In this document: positions 3,322 to 24,568 of the stretch, in pieces
Numbering within the stretch: the first letter of the stretch is position 1
How the letters are laid out: the number at the start of each line of letters is the position of its first letter
Program-made: the position numbers and the translations under genes
Source of the DNA: a virus
Virus record (IMG/VR): IMGVR_UViG_3300021962_000590
Coordinates: 1-25,462 of that record
Length of the DNA stretch: 25,462 bases
Strand: one strand, 5' to 3'
Notes under the pieces: model-generated
Database searches by the model: none
Told to the model about the DNA's origin: nothing
Seen by the model: the letters and a program-made list of their open reading frames with translations, nothing else

Positions 3322-3650
3322 TGGCAACAACATATAAGGTTCTAGGACAAAACAAACCCGGAGCAGCATCTTTAACAGATGCTTATACAGTACCAGCAGC
3401 AACACAAGCTTGTATTTCTACAATAACAGTAGCTAATCAGTCAGCTACAGCGACACAATTTAGAGTGTCAATAGCTGTGGCAGGTGCAGTCGATACAGCA
3501 GCTCAATATATTTATTATGATATTGACATTCCGGGAAACAATACATTTGCTGCTACTTTCGGCGTAACGTTAGGCGCAGGCGATGTTGTAAGAGTATACA
3601 ATACGCTAGCTACATGTTCGTTTAATATTTACGGTTGCGAAACAACTTAA
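3321..3650 (+). CDS. Putative virion structural protein, 109 aa
   Basis: It is coupled by TAATG to the preceding gene. It has an all-beta composition: LTDAYTVPAATQACISTITV, then strands IYYDIDIPGNNTF and DVVRVYNTLATCSFNIYG. This resembles small phage proteins found beside fibre and appendage genes in podovirus-like genomes; I know the pattern but not a secure family name. Two internal Cys are present. Its stop is followed closely by AAGGGG, the ribosome site of the next gene. Confidence 0.65.
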   Translation: MATTYKVLGQNKPGAASLTDAYTVPAATQACISTITVANQSATATQFRVSIAVAGAVDTAAQYIYYDIDIPGNNTFAATFGVTLGAGDVVRVYNTLATCSFNIYGCETT

Positions 3651-3658
3651 GGGGATTT

Positions 3659-4270
3659 ATGGCACAAGGATTTATAAATTCACAAAATATTTCATTGCCT
3701 CTAAGTGTTAGTAACGGTGGAACTAGTGCGACTACATTTGCAACAACAAATGGAATTGTTGTCTATGACGGCACAAAACTTGTCAGTGCTACTGGTGCAA
3801 CAATTGATACGAATGGAAATGCTAAATATACATCGAATACCGCTTTTTCAGCTGTTCAAAGTGCTGACATAGCTAACGTGACAGGAGACGGCACGAATTA
3901 TACTGTAATTTGTAATACTGAAATTTTCGATATTGGCAACAATTATAACAATGCTACTGGAATTTTTACCGCTCCTATTACAGGTGTATATTGGTTTGTA
4001 GGAAATGCATGGTTTGGAAATGTAGGTACAGGCACTCGAGGTAATGTAACATTACAAACAACTGCTCGCCGATATGTTGGGTCAGCATTTAACCCCCAAA
4101 CTTTAAAAGATATTGGTAACGATATTGTTCAACATGTCACAGCTATTGCGAATTTGAACGCTGGAGATACAGCATATTTAACAATGGCTATATCGGGACA
4201 AGCAAAAACGGTAAGAGCTAATGGAAACGGTGAACCGATTATGTTTTTTCAGGGAAGATTAGTGCAGTAA
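3659..4270 (+). CDS. Appendage protein with C1q-like C-terminal domain, 203 aa
   Basis: The start at 3659 is favoured by AAGGGG placed 5-9 bases before it. Residues 1-60 form a fibre-like leader beginning MAQGF, with SLPLSVSNGGTSATTF. Residues about 65-203 look like a C1q/TNF-type jelly-roll: NVTGDGTNYTV, TGIFTAPITGVYWFVGNAW and a C-terminal strand IMFFQGRLVQ. The phrase G-x-F-T-A-P-x-x-G-x-Y is a hallmark of C1q domains. In phages such domains sit at the tip of receptor-binding trimers. It is a paralogue of the next gene, sharing the MAQGF start and domain order. Confidence 0.75.
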   Translation: MAQGFINSQNISLPLSVSNGGTSATTFATTNGIVVYDGTKLVSATGATIDTNGNAKYTSNTAFSAVQSADIANVTGDGTNYTVICNTEIFDIGNNYNNATGIFTAPITGVYWFVGNAWFGNVGTGTRGNVTLQTTARRYVGSAFNPQTLKDIGNDIVQHVTAIANLNAGDTAYLTMAISGQAKTVRANGNGEPIMFFQGRLVQ

Positions 4271-4308: not shown

Positions 4309-4977
4309 ATGGCGCAAGGCTTTACATCACAACTTCCAGTACCACTACCAGTAGCCCAAGGCGGTAGCGGTGTAGTTTCTAATACCTCGTACGCAGTCTT
4401 GTGCGGAGGAACAACTTCAACAAATCCTATTCAAAGTGTTGCGTCAGTCGGCAGTGCTGGCGAAGTTTTAGTAAGTAATGGCTCAGGGGCATTACCGACA
4501 TTCCAAGGCGCAACTGGTTTTTTTGCTTATCTAGCTGTTGCTAAAACAAACGTAACAGGCGATGGAACGTTGTATTCAGTTCCTTTCGATTCCTTAAAAT
4601 ACGATACAGCCTCAGGCTTTGATACAACAACAGGTGTTTATACAATTCCTAAAACTGGAATTTGGACACTGGGTTATTTCCTAACATTAACTAATTTAAA
4701 CTCTTCACATACATCAGGGCAAATTGTAATTAGACAGACTGCAGGTGGTGGACAAACATATTACGGCCCAAGAGTTAACTTTGCTGCGATAAGAAGAGTA
4801 ACAAATGATGCGAATACCGTCTCTTTACCTTTTAGTTTTGATACAAATTTTTCAGCTACTGACACTGTGAATGTATCAGTAGCAATATTTAACAATACTA
4901 AAACTGTTGGTGTTATTGAAACAAGTAACGCTAATTATCAAAGTTGCTTTTTTGGTACATGGAGAGGATCAATTTAA
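4309..4977 (+). CDS. Appendage protein with C1q-like C-terminal domain, paralogue, 222 aa
   Basis: It starts at ATG after AGAGGA. The N-terminus MAQGFTSQLPVPLPVAQGGSG parallels the previous protein. It is followed by a fibre phrase (GSAGEVLVSNGSGALP) of the same family as the G-E-I-F-I-G-S-T-G repeats in the next gene. Residues about 75-222 form the C1q-like domain: NVTGDGTLYSVPFD, TTTGVYTIPKTGIWTLGYF and a final strand SCFFGTWRGSI. Two adjacent paralogues with diverged domains suggest alternative or heteromeric receptor-binding tips, though this is inference. Confidence 0.75.
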   Translation: MAQGFTSQLPVPLPVAQGGSGVVSNTSYAVLCGGTTSTNPIQSVASVGSAGEVLVSNGSGALPTFQGATGFFAYLAVAKTNVTGDGTLYSVPFDSLKYDTASGFDTTTGVYTIPKTGIWTLGYFLTLTNLNSSHTSGQIVIRQTAGGGQTYYGPRVNFAAIRRVTNDANTVSLPFSFDTNFSATDTVNVSVAIFNNTKTVGVIETSNANYQSCFFGTWRGSI

Positions 4978-6989: not shown

Positions 6990-8093
6990 TTAACAGGCTT
7001 TATTAACAGAAGTCTCAAAATAATCTACAATTATTCTCTTTTTTACAGAGGTTCGAGCAAGCTCCATATTTTTTTTCAACAAATCAACTTTTTTGTAGTT
7101 TTCGCTAAACAATGCTTTTAAATTTCTAGCTAGCAATCGCACGCCTTCGGGCGGAACCGCATTTCCAATCTGTCGGCGTATTTCACCAACCGATCCTAAA
7201 AAAACAAACGAATCTGGAAATGATTGAAGTCTTGCTCTTTCGCGATTAGTCAAAGCTCTTAATTCCGGATAATGATATCCCCAAGTTCCTCCTCCACCTG
7301 CCGCAATTAATGTTTTAGCAGGTTCGCTTCTGTGAATTCTTCTATAAATTAGGCTGATCATCCCTTTAACATAATGTGGGTCATCTTTGGGAATGTCAGT
7401 GAAATTTCCTCCCTCTGGAATTTTAGCTAATATCTCTTTCGTGCGTGGCATGATTTTCATATGCTCATTATTGTGTAGTACTTTTTCAACTTCATGTAAA
7501 GCTTCACCAGCCGTAAAATATGGCTTATTAACCTTTGGGCCGTGCGTAGGGGTTGGATGTTCAAAATCAAAACATGTATCGTTTCTTACTCCAACAAATA
7601 ATACTCTTTGTCGAAACTGCGGAATACCGTAATCTGCAAAATTATACAACTTGATGCTAAGTGTATACCCGGGCTGAATGGCTTCAAAGTCGCTTATTAT
7701 TTGCTGTATTGCCTTTCCATTATTAGCACTTAAAATCCCTTTCACATTTTCTGCTACAAAAGCTTTCGGCTTTTTTGCATCAATAAACCTCAAAAACTCT
7801 TTGTATAAACTACCTCTATCACCTTCTAAGCCGGGTCTTTTCCAAATAATTGAAAAATCCTGACAAGGGAATCCCCCAATCACAATATCACATGAAGGCA
7901 CGCTTTTCTCGCAATAAGGATCGATTTCTAAAATACTTCTTCGATCAACTTTTGAATCTTTAAAATTCAGTTCGTAAGTATCAGCAGCCCATTTATTAAA
8001 TTCATTCGAGTAGACAACGTCATAGCCTTCTAAATGAAATCCTAAATCAAGTCCTCCACAACCAGCAAACAGTGAAATAACTTTTGGTTTCAC
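6990..8093 (-). CDS. dcm: DNA (cytosine-5-)-methyltransferase, 367 aa
   Basis: It transfers a methyl group from S-adenosylmethionine to C5 of cytosine in a specific DNA site. Motifs appear in order: I FAGCGGLDLGF (cofactor binding), IV GGFPCQDFS with the catalytic Cys, VI AENVKG, VIII FRQRVLFVG, IX RERARLQSFPD and X RRQIGNAVPP. The target-recognition region lies between VIII and IX (about residues 185-290). The start is GTG at 8093, preceded by AAGGAA. A 45-residue basic C-terminal extension follows motif X. No restriction endonuclease gene is adjacent, so it is probably an orphan enzyme protecting phage DNA from host restriction. The target site cannot be read from sequence. Confidence 0.93.
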   Translation of the reverse strand: MKPKVISLFAGCGGLDLGFHLEGYDVVYSNEFNKWAADTYELNFKDSKVDRRSILEIDPYCEKSVPSCDIVIGGFPCQDFSIIWKRPGLEGDRGSLYKEFLRFIDAKKPKAFVAENVKGILSANNGKAIQQIISDFEAIQPGYTLSIKLYNFADYGIPQFRQRVLFVGVRNDTCFDFEHPTPTHGPKVNKPYFTAGEALHEVEKVLHNNEHMKIMPRTKEILAKIPEGGNFTDIPKDDPHYVKGMISLIYRRIHRSEPAKTLIAAGGGGTWGYHYPELRALTNRERARLQSFPDSFVFLGSVGEIRRQIGNAVPPEGVRLLARNLKALFSENYKKVDLLKKNMELARTSVKKRIIVDYFETSVNKAC

Positions 8094-8240: not shown

Positions 8241-9089
8241 TTATTTAAGTTTTTTAATAGTCCAGTTCTCAGAACCTTCAGAGCGATATTTCTCTAAATC
8301 AATGCCGGTGATGTCTGGTATAGCATCGTATTTAATACGCCCCTTCACGTAATTCTTTGTAATCTTGTAGCCGAAAGCTTCAGTATCTCTACCCTCACAA
8401 AGATCGATGATTTCTTGCTTTGCAAGCTCTTTTAATGCTTCATGCGACTCAATAGTTAGCTTATGATATTCGAAGCGTTTAATCGCCTCTTCTAAGCGTT
8501 TATCATCATTTTGATTTATAATCAAACTTGCGGGATCAGTAAAAAGCATTTCATCGTAAAACTTTTTCTCTTCTTCGATAAGCTTTAGAATGAACTCTTC
8601 ATCTCTATGCACTACAAGAAGTATTGATTTTCCTTCCCAGAAGCAGAAATAGTGACATACTTTTAGATCCGTGACAAATAGCGCGTGTTGCATTTGACAG
8701 CGGTAATACTGGGGTATCTCTCGTCTTTGTGCTTGCTCAAAAGCAGATTTACCGCATTTTATTTCGACAATATGTTGCCCACCTTCCGCTAGCCCATCAA
8801 GTGACGCCATAGCCCAAAAGTACTCATCATGAACACATACTTCTGGGATAACTATTACATTCTCTTGAAGCATATAAACTTCACGAGCTCTTGGCTCAAG
8901 CTCACGCCCAAGCCTCATTGCTTCGTTTTCTTCTTGCTCTTGAGCAACTCCAAGCTTTTGTTTAAGCACATCTTTTCGGCTCTTGTATGGATTTAAGCCC
9001 ATGATGGATGCTGCATCAGTGCTAGTAATGCAGCATTTTCTCTTCTCAATCCATTCTTTAGAGCCTTGTTCTAATTGTAGTATCTTCAA
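8241..9089 (-). CDS. YqaJ-family (lambda Exo-like) 5'-3' exonuclease, 282 aa
   Basis: This family degrades one strand of duplex DNA ends to expose 3' single strands for annealing. Visible landmarks are GSKEWIEKRKCCITSTDAAS and MGLNPY near the start, GRELEPRAREVY, the metal-binding MASLDG and IVEIKCG (the D...E-x-K core of the PD-(D/E)xK fold), and the helix QYYRCQMQHAL. Its length fits phage YqaJ proteins. It overlaps ssb by four bases (ATGA), giving coupled translation. Together with SSB and ERF it forms a phage two-component recombination system. Confidence 0.9.
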   Translation of the reverse strand: MKILQLEQGSKEWIEKRKCCITSTDAASIMGLNPYKSRKDVLKQKLGVAQEQEENEAMRLGRELEPRAREVYMLQENVIVIPEVCVHDEYFWAMASLDGLAEGGQHIVEIKCGKSAFEQAQRREIPQYYRCQMQHALFVTDLKVCHYFCFWEGKSILLVVHRDEEFILKLIEEEKKFYDEMLFTDPASLIINQNDDKRLEEAIKRFEYHKLTIESHEALKELAKQEIIDLCEGRDTEAFGYKITKNYVKGRIKYDAIPDITGIDLEKYRSEGSENWTIKKLK

Positions 9090-9436
9090 AATGGTAGCTC
9101 ATCTGTTACAGAGATTTCAGAAGCGGTTTTTTCTATTGATTTGCTGGGCAAGAAATAAAGATTAGTGATGACTAATTCTAAAGATACTTGCGTAGCTCCT
9201 GATTTGTCTGCATATGTTCGTGGCTTCTTTAAATCACCTTGCACCCCAATAAGCGAGCCTTTCTTCAAAAAGCTAATCATCTTATCGTGTGTATCGCCGA
9301 ATGCTGTGCATCTAATCCAGAAAGTATCTTCATCTTTTCCGCATGCTATTGAGAAAGTTGTTACCTTTTGCCCTTGCTGTGTAAATCGTGATTCAGGGTT
9401 TTTGCCGAGAAACCCGATGATATTTAGTTGTTTCAT
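9086..9436 (-). CDS. ssb: Single-stranded DNA-binding protein, 116 aa
   Basis: An OB-fold protein that coats single-stranded DNA during phage replication and recombination. The N-terminus NIIGFLGKNPESRFTQQGQK followed by VTTFSIACG, then DTFWIRCTAFG and KKGSLIGVQGDLK, is the classic SSB order. It ends in an acidic tip DELPF, the partner-binding tail of the DDIPF type. It is shorter than typical bacterial SSB because the linker is short. It lies between erf (2 bases away) and yqaJ (overlap), clearly one operon. Confidence 0.93.
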   Translation of the reverse strand: MKQLNIIGFLGKNPESRFTQQGQKVTTFSIACGKDEDTFWIRCTAFGDTHDKMISFLKKGSLIGVQGDLKKPRTYADKSGATQVSLELVITNLYFLPSKSIEKTASEISVTDELPF

Positions 9437-15507: not shown

Positions 15508-15866
15508 CTTTTATTGAAGTTGATAAAAACATACTGTCTAATTTAAAAAACGTTGCACGCTTAGAATGCTCAATAGATGAATCGCATTATACACTTAATG
15601 TGAAAGCATTTGTTGAAGTTGTAGATACTTGCAAAGAATATAACTTAGCTCATTACTTTTTTTTCTTTCCGCATAATCCCTTGAGAGCACTTGTAGAAGA
15701 AAATAAATCTGCGCAAATAAAACAATTTTGCAGTAAGTTTCTTGAAAGGATTGTTACGTTTAAAAAAAGATTTGTGTCGCAAGACGATATTGACGAGCTG
15801 TTTTTAGAGCTGCTAGAAGAATTAAGCCAAAGAGAGTTCTACACACAAGTTTATAAGAGAGTATGA
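15489..15866 (+). CDS. Hypothetical protein, 125 aa, TTG start
   Basis: The likely start is TTG at 15489, with GGAG about 6 bases upstream and no ATG in a suitable place. The protein is mixed alpha/beta with an aromatic stretch (LAHYFFFFPHNPLRALVEEN) and a long C-terminal helix (DDIDELFLELLEELSQREF). It is not a clear membrane protein. It overlaps the large terminase start by 4 bases (ATGA), so translation is coupled. The role is unknown; a packaging accessory role is suggested only by position. Confidence 0.6.
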   Translation: MEKDILTFIEVDKNILSNLKNVARLECSIDESHYTLNVKAFVEVVDTCKEYNLAHYFFFFPHNPLRALVEENKSAQIKQFCSKFLERIVTFKKRFVSQDDIDELFLELLEELSQREFYTQVYKRV

Positions 15867-17161
15867 CGATAAATTTGCCTCACAACTATAAGCCAAGGGC
15901 ATATCAGTTGCCAATCTTGAAGGCTCTAGATAACGGCGTAAAGCGTGCCGTTTGGGTCGTGCACAGGCGAGGGGGCAAAGATGTCACGATACTTAACTAT
16001 GTCATCAAAGAGCTAGCTAAAAGTACTAAAACTTGCTTCTATGTGTTTCCTTCATACGCGCAAGCAAAGAAAGCTATTTGGGATGCAATTAATAGCGATG
16101 GTTTTCGAATCATAGACTACATACCGACGCAAATTATTGCTCAAAAGAACGCTCAAGAAATGAAAGTACGCTTTAAAAATGGCTCTCTTTTACAGCTTAT
16201 AGGCTCTGACAACATCGACAGCATAGTAGGAACCAACCCATCAATTATTGTGTTCTCTGAGTATGCTTTGCAAGATCCAAGCGCATGGGACTACTTGAGG
16301 CCAATCCTGAAGGTCAATAAAGGCGTTGCTATCTTCATATCTACGCCAAGAGGGCGTAATCACTTTTGGGACATGTTTAGGCTTGCACGAGATAACGAAG
16401 AATGGTTTTGCGAGCTTCTCACAGTTGAAGACACAGATGTTTTGACTCAAGAAGACATTGAGCAAGAACGTAAAGAAAACATGAGCGAAGAGCTTATTCA
16501 ACAGGAATATTATTGCAGTTTCGATAGGGGTGTCGAGGGCTCATACTACGCTAAACTACTGCTAAAGATGGAACAGCAGGGGCGAATTACAGAGCTATTC
16601 TACGATGAGTACAAAGTGGTTCATACAGCATGGGATTTAGGTTGGGACGACTCAACAGCTGTTATATTCTTTCAAATAGACGCAGGAAGCGTAAAGATAA
16701 TTGACTACGAAGAACACAATAACAAGACTTTAGCGCAAATGAAGTCTATAATAGCTTCAAAGCCCTACCGATACGGATATAACCTTTTTCCGCACGATGT
16801 AGAGCAGATTGACGGACTTTCTACAGGATGCACACGTAGAGAGATACTAGAAGACTTGCAAATACCTGTGACTACTGTGAAGCGTAATCTCATTGCTGAT
16901 GGCATTGAAAGCGTCAAAGCTCTCATGTCATCTAGATTAATGATTAGCACACGATGCGATAAACTGCTAAAGGCTATCGAAAGTTATCATAAAGACTATG
17001 ATATGAAGAACAAAGTCTATAGCAATAAGCCAAGGCATGACTGGTCTTCTCATGCATGCGATGCCCTAAGGTATATGTCGGAAGGCCTTTCTTTAATTAA
17101 TGCTGCTCAAGGTAGCGTAGAAAACGACTATAAAGCACTTAGAAACTTCTGGGGATCTTAG
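15863..17161 (+). CDS. terL: Terminase large subunit, 432 aa
   Basis: The packaging motor ATPase and headful or end-cutting nuclease. The ATPase part has an adenine-binding region (YKPRAYQLPIL), a variant Walker A VVHRRGGKD, Walker B IIVFSEYAL with its catalytic Glu, and a coupling motif FISTPRGRNHFW. The RNase H-like nuclease part begins WDLGWDDSTAVIFF (first Asp), continues with a central block FPHDVEQIDG, and ends HDWSSHACDALRYM with the final Asp. Length is normal. The Walker A lacks the usual G-K-T/S because K is followed by D, a variation tolerated in some phage terminases. Confidence 0.93.
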   Translation: MTINLPHNYKPRAYQLPILKALDNGVKRAVWVVHRRGGKDVTILNYVIKELAKSTKTCFYVFPSYAQAKKAIWDAINSDGFRIIDYIPTQIIAQKNAQEMKVRFKNGSLLQLIGSDNIDSIVGTNPSIIVFSEYALQDPSAWDYLRPILKVNKGVAIFISTPRGRNHFWDMFRLARDNEEWFCELLTVEDTDVLTQEDIEQERKENMSEELIQQEYYCSFDRGVEGSYYAKLLLKMEQQGRITELFYDEYKVVHTAWDLGWDDSTAVIFFQIDAGSVKIIDYEEHNNKTLAQMKSIIASKPYRYGYNLFPHDVEQIDGLSTGCTRREILEDLQIPVTTVKRNLIADGIESVKALMSSRLMISTRCDKLLKAIESYHKDYDMKNKVYSNKPRHDWSSHACDALRYMSEGLSLINAAQGSVENDYKALRNFWGS

Positions 17162-17358: not shown

Positions 17359-19443
17359 ATGCGCAATAACGATCCACTATTCTGGCCCAATTCTTCTTTC
17401 TCTCAATCGCTTCGTCAAAGTATGGAGAAGAACTATACTGACTCTATAAACATACTACAAACGCAATGGTATCAAGCTGATCTAGACGATCGCTTTGCAA
17501 TGTCTGATCAAGACCTCTGGGGCTTGATATTTCCGGGTGTTGCTACATACAGAAGAAAGATTTTCAACTTTAACTTGATCAATCGTGTTGTGCAGATGAT
17601 TTCAGGGTATCAGAGAAGGAATCGCAAGTCTACTGTATGCATTCCAACACTGTCACCGATGCAAAAGACAGCTGACCAGCTTACCAAATGTTTGTATCAC
17701 GTTCACAACCAAGCAGGAGCTTATCAGGTATACTCTGATGCATTTGAAAAAGGTGCGCTTACTCAAGGTATAGGGCTCATAAGCATTTACAAAGATACAA
17801 CAAACGATCCTGTTAGCGGCGATATCAAGGTTAAATATGTAGATTTTAAAAGCATATTGATTGATCCCTACTTTAGATGCCACGACTTAAGCGATTGTAG
17901 GTACGTTTGGACAAGACAATTCTTTGATAGGCAAGAAGCTTCTTTACTATATCCTCAGTTTGCTGATGAAATTCTTAGTATGCCGAAAGGCACGTATAGA
18001 GATGATAAGTTTTATTACATGCCTGAAGTCTATCAAATACAATTTCCGAACCTCATAGCCTTCGATGAGTATTGGTATTTGTCGCAACGTGAAGCGGTTT
18101 ATTTAGTTGATAAAGAAACTGAAGAGTGTCAAGAATGGGAAGGCACAGACGAAGACTTTAAGATGATCAAAATACAGTTTAAAGATCGCTTAAAAATAAT
18201 AAAGAAAAACAAGCCGACAGTTAGAAGAGCAATAATAATTAACGATCGAGTACTTATAGATGAACCAAACCCCTACGGTCTCGATAGATACCCTTACGTA
18301 CCGTTTTTAGCGTACTTCTCACCAAACACACCATACTACGCATACAAGTTTAGAGGGGTTGTGAGGGACCTTAGGGACGCTCAGTACTTATTTGGACGTT
18401 TAAAGGTAACTTCGCTTGATATACTAGAAAGTCAACAAATGGGTCTTAAAGTAAAGAAAGGGGCTCTTGTTACTCCTGATGATGCTCTGAACCAAGGCAA
18501 TGGACGTGTTTTATCGATAGATCCTAAGTTTCAAATGTCTGACGTAGAGCCAATGCCGATCATTCCGCCTGCGCCGACGATGATACAAATGGAAGAGCAG
18601 CTAAAAACATTAGTAATGGAGATCTCTGGCGTCAACGAAGAGCTTCTTGGTTCGGCTGTAGATGATAAAGCTGGCATTCTATCAATGCTACGCCAAGGTG
18701 CAGGCCTTACAACACTTCAAAAGCTATTTGATCAGTTTGATGAGTCCCAAAGGCTGTGTGGAGATATCATTATAGAGATGATACAGAAAAATTGGACTTA
18801 CGGAAAAATAAAAAGAATCATAGGTGAAGAGCCTACAGCTGAATTTGACAACAAAGCGTTTTTTAAATATGGCTGTAAAGTAGTTCCAGGTGTGTTAACC
18901 GAATCTCAAGCGCAATTAGAAGTGCAACAGTTGCTTTATGCTAAAGAAATGGGCGCGCCCATTGAATGGTCTGACATACTTCCAAAGATGACAATACAAG
19001 GTAAAGATGAACTGCTTGAAAAAGTTAAAGCTCGGGAAGTTGGTCAAGCGCAACAAGCGCAAGCAATGGCTCAATTGCAAATGCAACAGCTTGCCGGCGA
19101 CAATGCAATGAAACAAGGCTACTCACAAGCTCAACAAAGCTTAGCAGCAGAAAGAATGGCTAAGATACAACTTGATCAAACACTTAACTTTGAACGATTG
19201 AATAGAGCAGAAGAAGATAAAACAGGCGCAACACTCAATTTAGTTAAAGCAATAAAAGAAATACAAAATATTGATTTAGACCAATTTCAGAAAGCGTTAT
19301 CTATAGTACAATCAATTGAACAAAAGAATGAGCAAGCAGTGCAGCAATCAATACAGATGCAGCAACCGAGCCCGCAATTACAATTACCGCAAGAACAACA
19401 AACACAACAACTCCAAGAGGCGAATTATGGACAAACTATCTAA
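17359..19443 (+). CDS. Portal protein, P22-like, 694 aa
   Basis: It forms the ring at the capsid vertex through which DNA enters and leaves. The order of conserved blocks fits the P22-type portal family: NFNLINRVVQMISGYQRRNR near residue 70, then FKSILIDPYFRCHDLSDCRY, EYWYL, PNPYGLDRYPYVPFLAYFSP, RGVVRDLRDAQYLFGRLK, ISGVNEELLGSAVDDKAGIL, and FDQFDESQRLCGDIIIEMIQ. Residues about 575-694 are a Gln-rich helical tail, as expected for the barrel of this family. Length is normal. The start has AAAGG about 6 bases upstream. The next small gene begins inside its 3' end. Confidence 0.92.
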   Translation: MRNNDPLFWPNSSFSQSLRQSMEKNYTDSINILQTQWYQADLDDRFAMSDQDLWGLIFPGVATYRRKIFNFNLINRVVQMISGYQRRNRKSTVCIPTLSPMQKTADQLTKCLYHVHNQAGAYQVYSDAFEKGALTQGIGLISIYKDTTNDPVSGDIKVKYVDFKSILIDPYFRCHDLSDCRYVWTRQFFDRQEASLLYPQFADEILSMPKGTYRDDKFYYMPEVYQIQFPNLIAFDEYWYLSQREAVYLVDKETEECQEWEGTDEDFKMIKIQFKDRLKIIKKNKPTVRRAIIINDRVLIDEPNPYGLDRYPYVPFLAYFSPNTPYYAYKFRGVVRDLRDAQYLFGRLKVTSLDILESQQMGLKVKKGALVTPDDALNQGNGRVLSIDPKFQMSDVEPMPIIPPAPTMIQMEEQLKTLVMEISGVNEELLGSAVDDKAGILSMLRQGAGLTTLQKLFDQFDESQRLCGDIIIEMIQKNWTYGKIKRIIGEEPTAEFDNKAFFKYGCKVVPGVLTESQAQLEVQQLLYAKEMGAPIEWSDILPKMTIQGKDELLEKVKAREVGQAQQAQAMAQLQMQQLAGDNAMKQGYSQAQQSLAAERMAKIQLDQTLNFERLNRAEEDKTGATLNLVKAIKEIQNIDLDQFQKALSIVQSIEQKNEQAVQQSIQMQQPSPQLQLPQEQQTQQLQEANYGQTI

Positions 19444-19830: not shown

Positions 19831-19863
19831 GAGGTATAATTTAGATAGTTATACCTCTTTTTT
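19831..19863 (+). terminator. Rho-independent terminator before the Hc1-like gene
   Basis: GAGGTATAA (19831-19839) pairs with TTATACCTC (19849-19857) around a 9-base loop, followed by six T. It comes only about 20 bases before the Hc1-like start, leaving little room for a separate promoter. Confidence 0.85.
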
Positions 19864-19881: not shown

Positions 19882-20178
19882 ATGGCTAAGAAAAAAGAAT
19901 GCAAAACACTAGTACAAGACACTGATAAACTTGTAACTATCACAAACGAAATTTTAGAAACTCTAAAATTTATTGAAGGCGAACTTATTTGTAACTTAAA
20001 CAAGAAGTACAATTATGCAGCTGCACAGCGCGTAAGAGTAGCCTCCATACATCTTACACGCATTTTAAAAGAATATAGAAAAGAAAGCTTAGCATTCGCT
20101 AAAAAGAAACCGAAAATAGAACTTCCACAAGTATGCGAAAAAGCTAAAGGTAAAAATGGAAAATCTAAGTGCGCATAA
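19882..20178 (+). CDS. Histone H1-like protein of the Hc1 family, 98 aa
   Basis: Hc1 proteins bind and condense DNA; in Chlamydia they compact the nucleoid of elementary bodies and silence transcription. The diagnostic block is YAAAQRVRVASIHLTRILKE followed by YRKESLAFAKKKPK (residues about 45-77). It matches my recollection of chlamydial Hc1 (A-A-A-Q-R-V-R-T-x-S-I-K-L...Y-R-K-E-S). The N-terminal helix (residues 13-38) is also in place. The basic C-terminal tail is short compared with cellular Hc1. It starts at ATG with TAGGAA before it, and its end overlaps the next gene by 23 bases. It may compact phage DNA or alter host transcription. Confidence 0.85.
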   Translation: MAKKKECKTLVQDTDKLVTITNEILETLKFIEGELICNLNKKYNYAAAQRVRVASIHLTRILKEYRKESLAFAKKKPKIELPQVCEKAKGKNGKSKCA

Positions 20179-21153: not shown

Positions 21154-21873
21154 ATGGAAGAAGCTCCAAACGAATACGAGGAAGTCGTTGAACCTCAAGC
21201 TCAAGACCATGAGGAAGCGATTAATGCTCCTCAAGCTAGTTCTAAAAGCCAAGACGATTGGCAAGAGAAAAACTGGCGAGAGATGCGTAGATCGCACGAT
21301 GAACTCAAGCAGATCGCTAGATCGCAAGCAGAGATTATCGAACAACTAAAGCAACAACTGACACCTAAAGAAGTAGATGAATTTGAAGGCATAGCCGACG
21401 ATGACTATCTACCTGTGGGCAAAGTTAAGCAGTTAGTTGAAAAGAAAGCTCGTGCAATTGTTCAAGCAGAAACTCAAAAGATTTTGCAACAACAAGAGCA
21501 AGCAAACTTTCTAGATAAGCTCAAAAGGCAATACGGCGACTTTGACGACATCGTTAACCAAGAAACATTAGCAATTTTAGAGAAACAAGACCCTGATTTA
21601 GCGGAAACCATTGCAGGACTGAAAGACCCCTATAAAATCGGTCTACAGTCTTACAAGTACATCAAGGCTCTTGGTATTGCTGATAAAGTGCCACAAGCAC
21701 GCCGTGTTGCAGAAGTAGACAAGAAGATTGAGAAGAACGCTAAAACCGTTCAAACACCTCAAGCGTACGATAAGAGGCCTATGGCTCAAGCCTTCAAAAC
21801 TACTGACGCAGAAAGGGCAGCAATTTACAAAGAGATGATGGAATACGCTTCAAGGTCTGGTTACTCTTACTAA
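21154..21873 (+). CDS. Putative scaffolding protein, 239 aa
   Basis: It lies directly upstream of the capsid gene, 13 bases apart, with AAAAGGAAAA before its ATG. The protein is acidic at the N-terminus (MEEAPNEYEEVVEPQAQDHE) and then almost wholly helical and Gln/Glu/Lys-rich, with long coiled-coil stretches (residues about 35-75 and 85-125: QAEIIEQLKQQL, ARAIVQAETQKILQQQEQAN). It ends with a basic-to-amphipathic C-terminal helix (DAERAAIYKEMMEYASRSGY). This is the profile of phage scaffolds, which guide coat assembly and are later expelled. The call is by context and composition. Confidence 0.8.
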   Translation: MEEAPNEYEEVVEPQAQDHEEAINAPQASSKSQDDWQEKNWREMRRSHDELKQIARSQAEIIEQLKQQLTPKEVDEFEGIADDDYLPVGKVKQLVEKKARAIVQAETQKILQQQEQANFLDKLKRQYGDFDDIVNQETLAILEKQDPDLAETIAGLKDPYKIGLQSYKYIKALGIADKVPQARRVAEVDKKIEKNAKTVQTPQAYDKRPMAQAFKTTDAERAAIYKEMMEYASRSGYSY

Positions 21874-21886
21874 CTAAGAGAGAACT

Positions 21887-22426
21887 ATGACAGTTTCAAT
21901 CGCAACAATGCCTCCACAAATACAACAGAGGTATAACGCTAAATTGTTGTCTACTCCTGAAAGAAATCTTGTTCACATGTTATTTGCAACTCCTGTAGAG
22001 CTTCCAGATAACCAAGGTTTTATCGATAGACAATCTAGATATGATCGCTTAGATCTATTCCCAGTGCCTCTTGATGACGCACAGATTAATCCACCACCAC
22101 AAGCACTAAACCGTGTTGATGTGGATTGTAGAGTGCGTGTTTATGCAACTTATACTGTACTTACACGCCAAGTAACAATCACAAACGAAGATCCAGTTCT
22201 CAATAGCGCTGCAGCCCGTTTAGGCCAAGCACTTAGAGAAACTCAAGACGTACTCGTAAGAGATGCTCTCGAAGCTACTGCATCGGTCATAAACTGTGTG
22301 GGGGGTACAAACGGCGATTTACCAACAGAAATGACGGTAACCGATATTGACGACGTTGTAACAGTACTGCAAAACAACTCTGCGGAATACATTACAAACA
22401 TCGTTGAAGCTGACCTCAAATTCGGT
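21887..22426 (+). CDS. Major capsid protein, exon 1 (N4-gp56-like; residues 1-180)
   Basis: The coat protein of the head. The spliced gene joins six exons: 21887-22426, 22669-22784, 22995-23129, about 23360-23452, about 23682-23754 and about 24515-24568, giving roughly 335 residues. Exon 1 encodes the N-terminal half with blocks I recall from the N4-gp56 capsid family: TYTVLTRQVTITNEDPVLN, LGQALRETQDVLVRDALEAT and the stretch up to EADLKFG. The frame then reads into the intron and stops at 22483. The exon 1/2 junction restores G-T-S-P-I-G in frame. Without splicing only a truncated 198-residue product would be made. Family naming is from memory. Confidence 0.88.
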
Positions 22427-22668
22427 AAAATAAGTGCCGAAATAAAACCTTGGGTAATTGACTTGAAGTGCCTTGCAGCGTAGCAACTGAAGGTTAACAA
22501 GGCGCAAGCAGCTTCAAGCATGCAGCGTGAGAGACTAAACCCTGAGGACCATGTCGAGGATAAGCTCGATATGGTATGTGATAGTCCGAACTCTACGAAT
22601 AAATAAAGGTAGAGAAGCAAACAGAAATGATTTGCTCGCCTAGAAATAGGTTACAAAGTAACAAAATG
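22427..22668 (+). ncRNA. Group I intron 1 in the capsid gene (242 bases)
   Basis: Exon 1 ends TTCGGT, which pairs with the guide GCCGAA at the start of the intron, giving the required U-G pair at the splice site (P1). AAGT just before the guide pairs with ACTT at the start of exon 2 (P10). P7 is GACTA (22533-22537) with TAGTC (22582-22586). Hairpins CTCTAC/GTAGAG, AGCAAA/TTTGCT and CCTA/TAGG follow (P9 region), and the intron ends in G. No protein is encoded. Confidence 0.92.
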
Positions 22669-22784
22669 ACTTCACCGATTGGTGATAGCTATGGATGTAT
22701 GTTATCTACAAGAATGATCCCTGTTTTAAATAATATGACAGGCTTTATTCGTAAGTTTCAATATCCAAGAATTGACCAGACGCT
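22669..22784 (+). CDS. Major capsid protein, exon 2
   Basis: It continues the coat protein in frame from TSPIGDSYGCMLSTRMIPVL through MTGFIRKFQYPRIDQT, ending in codon phase 2 (CT). Unspliced, the frame would run on to a stop at 22839. Confidence 0.88.
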
Positions 22785-22994
22785 AAACTTTGATGGTGTC
22801 TATAAATCTAACCTGATTGAGGTGGAAGCCGTAGCGTAAATACGTCGGTGACACTGCGGAACCTGAAAAGGACCGTAAGAGACTAAGCGGTTAGAGCCGA
22901 AAGGCAAGCGATAGTCCGAACCAATTCGAAAGATTTGGAGAGGGGAATAACAAGACCCTCCGCCTAGCAATAGGTCATAAAAAGTAACAGTTAG
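22785..22994 (+). ncRNA. Group I intron 2 in the capsid gene (210 bases)
   Basis: Exon 2 ends AGACGCT, which pairs with guide GGTGTCT (7 bp with terminal U-G; P1). TGAT before the guide pairs with ATCA at the start of exon 3 (P10). P7 is GACTA (22881-22885) with TAGTC (22912-22916). P9-region hairpins CCAA...TTGG, GAGGG/CCCTC and CCTA/TAGG resemble intron 1, and the intron ends GTAACAGTTAG. Confidence 0.92.
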
Positions 22995-23129
22995 ATCAAC
23001 AGAATGGGGCGGTGTTAACAACGTGCGTTTCTTTGTTTCAGAACAAGGTAGCGTAACCCCAGCGGCTTCTTTGCTTGGTAACGATGTGGCTAACTGCTTC
23101 GTTGCTGCTAAAGAATCGTATAAAGTGGT
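22995..23129 (+). CDS. Major capsid protein, exon 3
   Basis: The junction gives L-S-T-E-W-G-G-V-N-N-V-R-F-F-V-S, matching the usual G-E-x-G-S-V-x-x-x-R-F stretch of this capsid family, then AAKESYKVV. The 5' boundary is firm; the 3' end (23129 or 23130) depends on which U pairs with G in P1 of the next intron. Confidence 0.85.
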
Positions 23130-23359
23130 TCGAGTAATAAGCCCAGGCCACTATAAATCCTTTCTGATCGTCTTAGAGGTCTTAACAGGTAATGCTGAAG
23201 ATAATAAGGGGCAAGCAATCGAAAGATGTGCAGCCTGAGAGAACAAGCGAAAGGACATCGAAAGATGAAGCGATGTTCCGATCCTTATGGAAACATAAGG
23301 AGGCTGGCAGAAATGATCAGCCCGCCTATCGTAAGATAGGTCATAAAGTAACAGCACGG
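23130..23359 (+). ncRNA. Group I intron 3 in the capsid gene (about 230 bases)
   Basis: Exon 3 end AGTGGT pairs with GCCACT (P1). P7 is GAACA (23241-23245) with TGTTC (23274-23278), a compensatory change from introns 1 and 2. Hairpins GCTG/CAGC and CCTATC/GATAGG and the motif AAAGTAACAG follow. The 3' end is less sure: 23354, 23359 and 23384 all keep the exon frame with a suitable 5' site, and no clear P10 was found. Confidence 0.85.
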
Positions 23360-23452
23360 ACACTTTAAGCCTGTAGAGTGTCCGACGTGGCAAGCAGGCG
23401 GTAAGGCTAGATTTATTTATCTGCCTCCTGGGTACAACAATGACCCTTGCAT
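23360..23452 (+). CDS. Major capsid protein, exon 4
   Basis: It encodes HFKPVECPTWQAGGKARFIY then LPPGYNNDPC, keeping the Gly-rich and N-D-P blocks near the C-terminus of this capsid family. The 3' border after GCAT is supported by a 7-bp P1 helix. The first few codons are uncertain. Confidence 0.8.
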
Positions 23453-23681
23453 AAATAAAATTTTGAGTGTGCAAGTAAAACCCGATTTGATTGACTTGGA
23501 AGCCTACAGCGAAAGCCATGGCGACAAGGCGCAAGCAGCGTAAAGCGTGCAGCGTGAGAGCAGTAAGCAATTGGGATCCTTCGGGATATGCGGTACTCCG
23601 ATCCACACAACGAAAGGTGTGGAGGTAAGCTGAGAAGACTTACCCGTTTTTAGCCTGCTGGACGTAACAAACCTCGCTCCG
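23453..23681 (+). ncRNA. Group I intron 4 in the capsid gene (about 229 bases)
   Basis: Exon 4 ends CTTGCAT, which pairs with guide GTGCAAG (7 bp with terminal U-G). P7 is the GAGCAGTA region (23557-23564) with TACTC (23594-23598). The core AAGGCGCAAGCAGC...GCAGCGTGAGAG is nearly the same as in intron 1. The 3' end is placed after G at 23681 because this restores the frame C-M-H-T-A-G-C-S-F-Y; a start of exon 5 at 23676 is also in frame. Confidence 0.82.
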
Positions 23682-23754
23682 GCATACAGCGGGCTGTTCC
23701 TTTTACCAGGGTGAATATGTAAAATTGGCTCTGGGATGGTTTTTGGAGGCTGCA
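23682..23754 (+). CDS. Major capsid protein, exon 5
   Basis: It encodes HTAGCSFYQGEYVKLALGWF then LEAA. The frame meets a stop at 23755-23757, inside intron 5. The exact 3' border is not fixed because no clean P1 pairing was found for the next intron; it lies within about 23735-23756. Confidence 0.7.
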
Positions 23755-24514
23755 TAAGCCAAAAAACTAAAAATTAATCTTCACTGATTAACTTGGACGC
23801 CTAAGGTTATATAGTGACAATATAACTATGGTAACAGGGACGAAGATTATACTTTTTATGATGCAGTGTATTATAATCCTTTAAAAAGGAGGCAATGCAT
23901 GAAGACTTGTAAATTATGTAAGGTAACTAAAGAATATGAACATTTTCCAAAACATAGTTCTTATTCAGATGGATATTACTCCAGATGCAAAGAATGCAAT
24001 TATAGATTGGAAAAAGAATGGAGACAAAACAATCCAGAAAAGAAAAATGAAATACGCACAAGGTATAGACAAAATAATAGGGAAAAAATTCGTGAGCAAG
24101 ATAAACAATTTTATGAAAAAAATTGCGAACGTCTTAGAGAAAAGCAAAAAATTGATAAAATTGAAAACCCTCACAAACATAAAGCCTATAAAGAATATCG
24201 AGTCGCATTATCAAATGGAAAGATTAAACAAACTGATTACTGTCAAATATGTGGCATTAAAAACATGCCTCTTGATGGTCATCATGCAGATTATGAAAAA
24301 CCATTGGAAGTCATTTGGATTTGCAAAAGTTGCCATATGTACATACATAAAAAAATATAATCACGTTGAGAGACTGAGTGTGAGGACTCTTTATAAGAGA
24401 AGCGACAGTCCGATCTTAAATGAAAGTTTAAGAGGGAGATTTGAAGCAGTTTCCCCGCTACTAAAATTGTTAGTAGTCAGTAAACGATGTAAATTGTTGA
24501 AAGTAACAGGTTTG
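23755..24514 (+). ncRNA. Group I intron 5 in the capsid gene, carrying an HNH gene (about 760 bases)
   Basis: The start region GATTAACTTGGACGCC matches introns 1, 2 and 4. P7 is GACTG (24372-24376) with CAGTC (24406-24410), another compensatory pair. P9-type hairpins CTTAAA/TTTAAG and CTACTA/TAGTAG and the end motif AAAGTAACAG follow. The endonuclease gene is inserted ahead of the P7 5' strand, in a P5/P6 loop-like position. Both ends are approximate: P1 and P10 could not be assigned. With its own homing enzyme this is the likely mobile member of the set. Confidence 0.82.
23899..24360 (+). CDS. Intron-encoded HNH homing endonuclease, 153 aa
   Basis: The start at 23899 is chosen because AAGGAGG lies 8 bases before it. 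Cys pairs CKLC and CKEC near the N-terminus form a zinc finger of about 30 residues. A highly charged helical linker follows (residues about 35-105). The C-terminal HNH domain reads CQICG, then DGHHADYEKPLEVIWICKSCHMYIHKK, split here into the catalytic DGHHADYEKP and the metal-binding CKSCH. Such enzymes nick or cut intronless alleles and so spread their intron. It lies wholly inside intron 5. Its AT-rich, Lys/Asn-rich codon use differs from the capsid exons, as expected for an invading gene. Confidence 0.9.
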   Translation: MKTCKLCKVTKEYEHFPKHSSYSDGYYSRCKECNYRLEKEWRQNNPEKKNEIRTRYRQNNREKIREQDKQFYEKNCERLREKQKIDKIENPHKHKAYKEYRVALSNGKIKQTDYCQICGIKNMPLDGHHADYEKPLEVIWICKSCHMYIHKKI

Positions 24515-24568
24515 CAATGCATTACAAACGATCTTTGGATCCAAAACCTAAGATCAACAGGAATTTAA
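24515..24568 (+). CDS. Major capsid protein, exon 6 (C-terminus)
   Basis: It encodes CITNDLWIQNLRSTGI and the stop at 24566-24568. The ITNDxWIxNLRST ending is one I recall from capsids of this kind and follows naturally on LGWFLEAA of exon 5. The 5' border is approximate. The stop overlaps the ribosome site of the next gene. Confidence 0.7.
   Translation, partial: QCITNDLWIQNLRSTGI

Follow-up and report, generated by a model that had tools for sequence, protein, structure and literature searches.

A gene for a small basic protein of the Hc1 type, the chlamydial histone family that includes HctA, lies between the portal and head genes of a tailed dsDNA phage with a P22-like portal and terminase. 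The phage is known from the IMG/VR virus record IMGVR_UViG_3300021962_000590, which is linear and probably a fragment, and whose 25,462 bases form the whole stretch of DNA analysed here (the window). We consider it probable that a host-type Hc1/HctA gene was acquired by tailed phages infecting Chlamydiota, and that it encodes a late, nonspecific DNA-binding hairpin protein. The Hc1 domain as such is already known in other phages; what is probably new is its occurrence in a chlamydial form, on a tailed phage whose host is probably a member of Chlamydiota. For Chlamydia, the review PMC8466579 describes only small single-stranded DNA phages (Microviridae), and a literature search, largely outside subscription papers, found no tailed chlamydial phage. 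The Chlamydiamicrovirus phages (Chp1-4, phiCPG1, phiCPAR39) are a parallel as phages of Chlamydia, but they are Microviridae with single-stranded DNA of ~6 kb (PMC8466579), whereas the window belongs to a tailed dsDNA phage. Such a lineage, carrying a host nucleoid histone, would give a handle on how phages deal with a host whose genome is condensed between infections.

The 98-residue protein matches the Pfam Hc1 profile (PF07432) with 37.1 bits (E=2.9e-9), above the curated gathering cut-off of 23.5 bits, and a six-frame search recovers the same match at 19882-20178, so that the profile search proposed with an earlier sequence-only reading bears out its naming of an Hc1-type protein at this place. 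The match aligns protein residues 42-75 with profile positions 24-57 of 57, i.e. most of it lies in the second half of the domain, and the motif block found in the protein is YNYAAAQRVRVASIHLTRILKEYRKES. Against the NCBIfam HctA model (NF051889) the protein reaches 32.3 bits (E=1.2e-7), below the equivalog cut-off of 100. Among IMG/VR contigs the gene was found in two others only, L002 and L003, where it occupies the same place. The L002 copy is 83% identical to that of the window in the alignment (portal 92%) and the L003 copy 43% identical (portal 87%); both pass the Pfam cut-off (27.7 and 26.4 bits, respectively) and both stay under that of NF051889 (29.6 and 30.2 bits). When a profile HMM made from 30 Chlamydiota Hc1 sequences was run on ~150 viral loci and on phage contigs from Chlamydiota bins, the only ORFs it matched were these same three. 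Between the window and L002 copies dN is 0.097 and dS 1.188 (NG86), which gives a dN/dS of ~0.08. Given this ratio and the same placement in two related phage contigs, the ORF is a real gene under purifying selection.

In the AlphaFold2 model (mean pLDDT 74.7) helices 6-38 and 45-75 form a hairpin, and the tail is disordered from residue 81. A search of PDB sequences with the 98-residue protein gave no match, and a fold search with the predicted model gave nothing at E 0.001 or better, helical hairpins being unspecific. The protein resembles chlamydial Hc1/HctA in being small and basic (predicted pI 9.7) and in its helical N-terminal domain with the pattern AAAQRVR..SI.L.....YRKES. It differs from it by an N-terminal extension and a small insertion in the turn, by four cysteines, compared with none in 28 of the 30 cellular Hc1, and by its C-terminal end, where the long Lys/Ala-rich tail is much reduced. 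The short basic tail corresponds to residues 76-98; taken as 29 residues, the C-terminal tail holds 9 K/R and 2 D/E, compared with 59-78 residues and 23-27 K/R in the three full-length chlamydial Hc1 measured. One Chlamydiota Hc1 (L153) is likewise tailless. Tight DNA binding is usually credited to the long Lys-rich tail of Hc1. The reduced tail suggests that the function may differ from that of cellular Hc1, and argues against strong compaction.

Features of the window discussed in the text, with coordinates, strand and the basis of each assignment.
Feature	Position	Strand	Basis
Hc1-like protein gene, 98 aa, ATG start	19882..20178	+	Pfam PF07432; conserved in L002/L003; AlphaFold2 model
Intrinsic terminator	19831..19863	+	11-bp stem, T6; between 59-aa ORF and Hc1 gene
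Small conserved phage ORF bordering the slot on the left, 59 aa	19618..19797	+	homologues in 33 loci
Conserved phage ORF bordering the slot on the right, 185 aa	20156..20713	+	homologues in 137 loci
Portal protein, P22-like (PF16510)	17359..19443	+	family match
Terminase large subunit	15863..17161	+	family match
Putative scaffold-like protein	21154..21873	+	position and composition only; without family match
Major head protein gene, six exons, five group I-like introns	21887..24568	+	
Single-stranded DNA-binding protein (SSB), chlamydial affinity	9086..9436	-	model match, phmmer, tree

The gene had been described as standing between portal and scaffold genes. The portal and the phage head genes are there, and the scaffold assignment is only plausible. 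Among 76 relatives that span the region from the portal to the 185-aa ORF, two carry Hc1 and about 74 do not; in those inspected of the latter, the slot is empty or holds unrelated small ORFs. The Hc1 gene is a rare accessory in this lineage. L002 and L003 have a hairpin at the same place as the terminator of the window, and terminator-like hairpins at the slot junction were also seen in most of the few inspected relatives that lack Hc1. The 185-aa ORF begins at an ATG located 23 nt within the Hc1 gene. In L002 and L003, too, an in-frame ATG overlaps with Hc1, which makes coupled translation likely. With a terminator upstream and an overlap with the next head gene, the Hc1 gene is therefore probably translated together with the head genes, which are late. 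Promoter-like sites near it were found at no more than chance level.

We propose that a tailed-phage lineage infecting Chlamydiota took up a host-type Hc1/HctA gene, and that the acquired gene would have settled in the variable slot that separates the portal block from the head gene block and would be expressed late. The small basic helical hairpin with its disordered basic tail would then bind DNA late and without sequence specificity, coating host or phage DNA as cellular HctA does, but by way of a weaker, shortened tail, and may act on the host nucleoid or on packaging. Of the roles considered, late DNA binding is the most likely because of the homology and the charge of the protein. The sequence-only reading went further, to compaction of phage DNA, silencing of host genes or lysis timed with the developmental cycle, roles that are conjectural here. 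It is possible, if doubtful, that the protein instead serves virion structure or packaging, as a basic helical accessory that enters the capsid with the DNA or aids head assembly and whose Hc1 fold is only a DNA-neutralising module. Its place between portal and head genes, the overlap with the next head gene and the short tail are in line with this, as are the conserved cysteines, absent in most cellular Hc1, which could form disulfide links in the virion; however, the about 74 of 76 relatives without Hc1 have nearly the same head module, and the gene is therefore dispensable for head assembly in the lineage.

A role in host takeover or in the developmental cycle, where the protein would bind the host chromosome and repress transcription or mimic the RB-to-EB switch as HctA does, seems unlikely to us. 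Overproduction of HctA in E. coli leads to nucleoid condensation, and in C. trachomatis HctA knockdown leaves condensation visible and weakens the next infection cycle, HctA-deficient EBs being poor at starting it (PMC13317200). These observations and the probably host-derived sequence speak for such a factor, but location in the head-gene region suggests expression too late for takeover, and the chance level of promoter-like sites nearby and the reduced tail point the same way. A more far-reaching idea, which we regard as quite improbable, is that the trimmed, cysteine-bearing copy of the host histone steers the chlamydial cycle, and that late condensation of host or phage DNA lets phage genomes travel in the infectious elementary body; if true, such travel would be an entry route into an otherwise closed intracellular host.

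In Chlamydiota, a repeated genome scan, whose pattern was shaped by two chlamydial segments and whose matches were confirmed with the window protein, found Hc1 in 138 of 151 genomes; a scan of Chlamydiota genomes with the phage Hc1 alignment alone had given no matches. Hc1 also occurs in Bacteroidota, both in a control genome and as proteins annotated as 'histone H1' on plasmids. In the Lak megaphages of Prevotella an Hc1 protein, found with a Bacteroidota bait sequence, scores 79.3 bits with Pfam Hc1 and 43.8 bits with NCBIfam HctA, and in phage contigs of marine type the two contig proteins scanned reach 42.6-45.7 bits with Pfam Hc1. The Hc1 domain alone was therefore rejected as host evidence, Lak and Bacteroidota proteins matching the same models; as Hc1 recurs in unrelated phages, the name alone is no basis for assigning a chlamydial host.

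In a tree of 47 Hc1 proteins (56 columns; sequences fetched from the records), a branch supported at 99/98 separates the three phage copies and the 30 Chlamydiota Hc1 from the Hc1 of Bacteroidota and other phages. The residues AQRVR and YRKES side with Chlamydiota, and core-block identity separates the groups weakly (13-18 of 30 vs 14 of 30). A topology that places the phage copies with Bacteroidota is worse by 6 log units but is not rejected with these 56 columns (AU p 0.28). The claim that the AAAQRVR...YRKES block is a chlamydial signature thus stands as to the presence of the block and its chlamydial affinity and falls as to exclusiveness, since Bacteroidota and other phages share the Pfam Hc1 domain; the suggested phylogeny with cellular Hc1 likewise gave the grouping with Chlamydiota and left the Bacteroidota alternative unrejected.

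The Bacteroidota 'histone H1' and Lak megaphage proteins share with the window protein the same Pfam domain, the absence of a long tail and, for Lak, a phage location, but they show a GxRARK...L..EFRK pattern and lie across the 99/98 branch, and Lak megaphages are 540-kb phages of another host phylum, in whose records Hc1 is unannotated. The Lak Hc1 / histone H1 proteins, unannotated in L232 and L234, have 59 aa and are close to Bacteroidota plasmid copies. Three contigs of marine type (L325-L327) and a 462-kb uncultured phage (LR756500) likewise have an Hc1 domain, with the motif GNKAA..R.RK, but differ by the absence of YRKES, by forming a separate clade and by another gene context. The short Hc1-domain ORFs of the three contigs (L325:1972-2202, L326:1-210 and L327:894-1118), in contigs that look marine and have a conserved neighbourhood, are followed by a 450-aa putative PhoH/PIN-type ORF, and a PHROG search with the short protein gave no match.

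Evidence on the host from other genes is independent of Hc1. The SSB of the window scores 100 bits with NCBIfam PRK06293, compared with 57.5 for the general ssb model; among the genomes tried, the PRK06293 cut-off was passed only in Chlamydiota, with weaker matches in 10 of 14 controls. In phmmer comparisons the window SSB matched Chlamydiota SSBs with 55-93 bits (12 of the 14 at 72-93), and eight SSBs chosen among the stronger matches from 50,697 phage and 72,556 plasmid records with at most 57 bits. In the SSB tree it stands outside and beside the cellular Chlamydiota clade (89/75), a position that shows affinity with Chlamydiota but does not show descent. DnaB was also considered as a host marker: its top matches include a Chlamydiifrater plasmid helicase (30%, 160 bits), but Proteus and Salmonella score as high.

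A portal profile, searched within Chlamydiota, matched 9 of 232 genomes (best E 0). The nine portal-bearing contigs are all of phage size (5-41 kb); mis-binning is possible for them since they are without clear chromosomal flanks, and the rarity of the close lineage in IMG/VR, where its patterns match only about 130-240 of 2.9 million contigs, counts against it. Clear chromosomal flanks for a portal match were found only for a 106-aa portal fragment, which lies together with a terminase in a 125-kb Chlamydiota contig (G048; L356), where the neighbours are MFS transporter, IS3 and purB genes. A terminase remnant with stop codons in an 860-kb Chlamydiota contig (G033; L353) sits between leuS - KDO transferase and two PPi-phosphofructokinase genes; it is 56-63% identical to the window lineage but also 49-55% identical to some named phages, so that this remnant alone is not exclusive. 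Two larger Chlamydiota chromosomal contigs (G110, L355, 2.9 Mb; G029, L358, 2.1 Mb) hold terminases that share about 51-52% identity with the one in the relative L020. The window terminase itself is 39% identical to its best match among named phages and 63% identical to a terminase in a Chlamydiota bin (G114). A search for near-identical DNA in Chlamydiota genomes found none that was convincing except the phage contigs and the terminase.

Taken from these genes, the host is probably a member of Chlamydiota. The chlamydial host that the sequence-only reading had drawn from Hc1 is therefore probable on independent grounds (SSB, portal contigs, terminase and portal remnants), and the relatives of the protein are not solely from unrelated free-living hosts. 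That the host belongs to Bacteroidota and the gene is a Bacteroidota-type histone H1 domain as in the Lak megaphages is highly improbable: the Lak protein does match both Hc1 models better and the AU test does leave this grouping open, but the best tree and the AQRVR and YRKES residues favour Chlamydiota, as do the SSB, the portal contigs and the chromosomal remnants.

Elsewhere in the window, two adjoining C1q-like domain proteins (3635-4270 and 4309-4977) are probably parts of a tail fibre or spike, and a cytosine-5 DNA methyltransferase gene (6990-8093, minus strand) adjoins a recombination block of ERF, SSB and a YqaJ-type exonuclease. The exons of the major head protein gene (21887-22426, 22669-22788, 22996-23130, 23388-23453, about 23680-23712 and 24515-24565) together span nearly all of an intact relative of 315 aa. 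The five gaps carry covarying group I intron-like pairs (GACTA/TAGTC, GACTA/TAGTC, GAACA/TGTTC, AGTA/TACT and GACTG/CAGTC, respectively), and the last also contains an HNH-like ORF; an Rfam search gave no match over threshold. In seven relatives (L082 to L087 and L089) the head gene has one or two interruptions at the same sites (after aa 180 and after aa 286), and in most inspected relatives it is uninterrupted, which is why we regard the interruptions as mobile introns.
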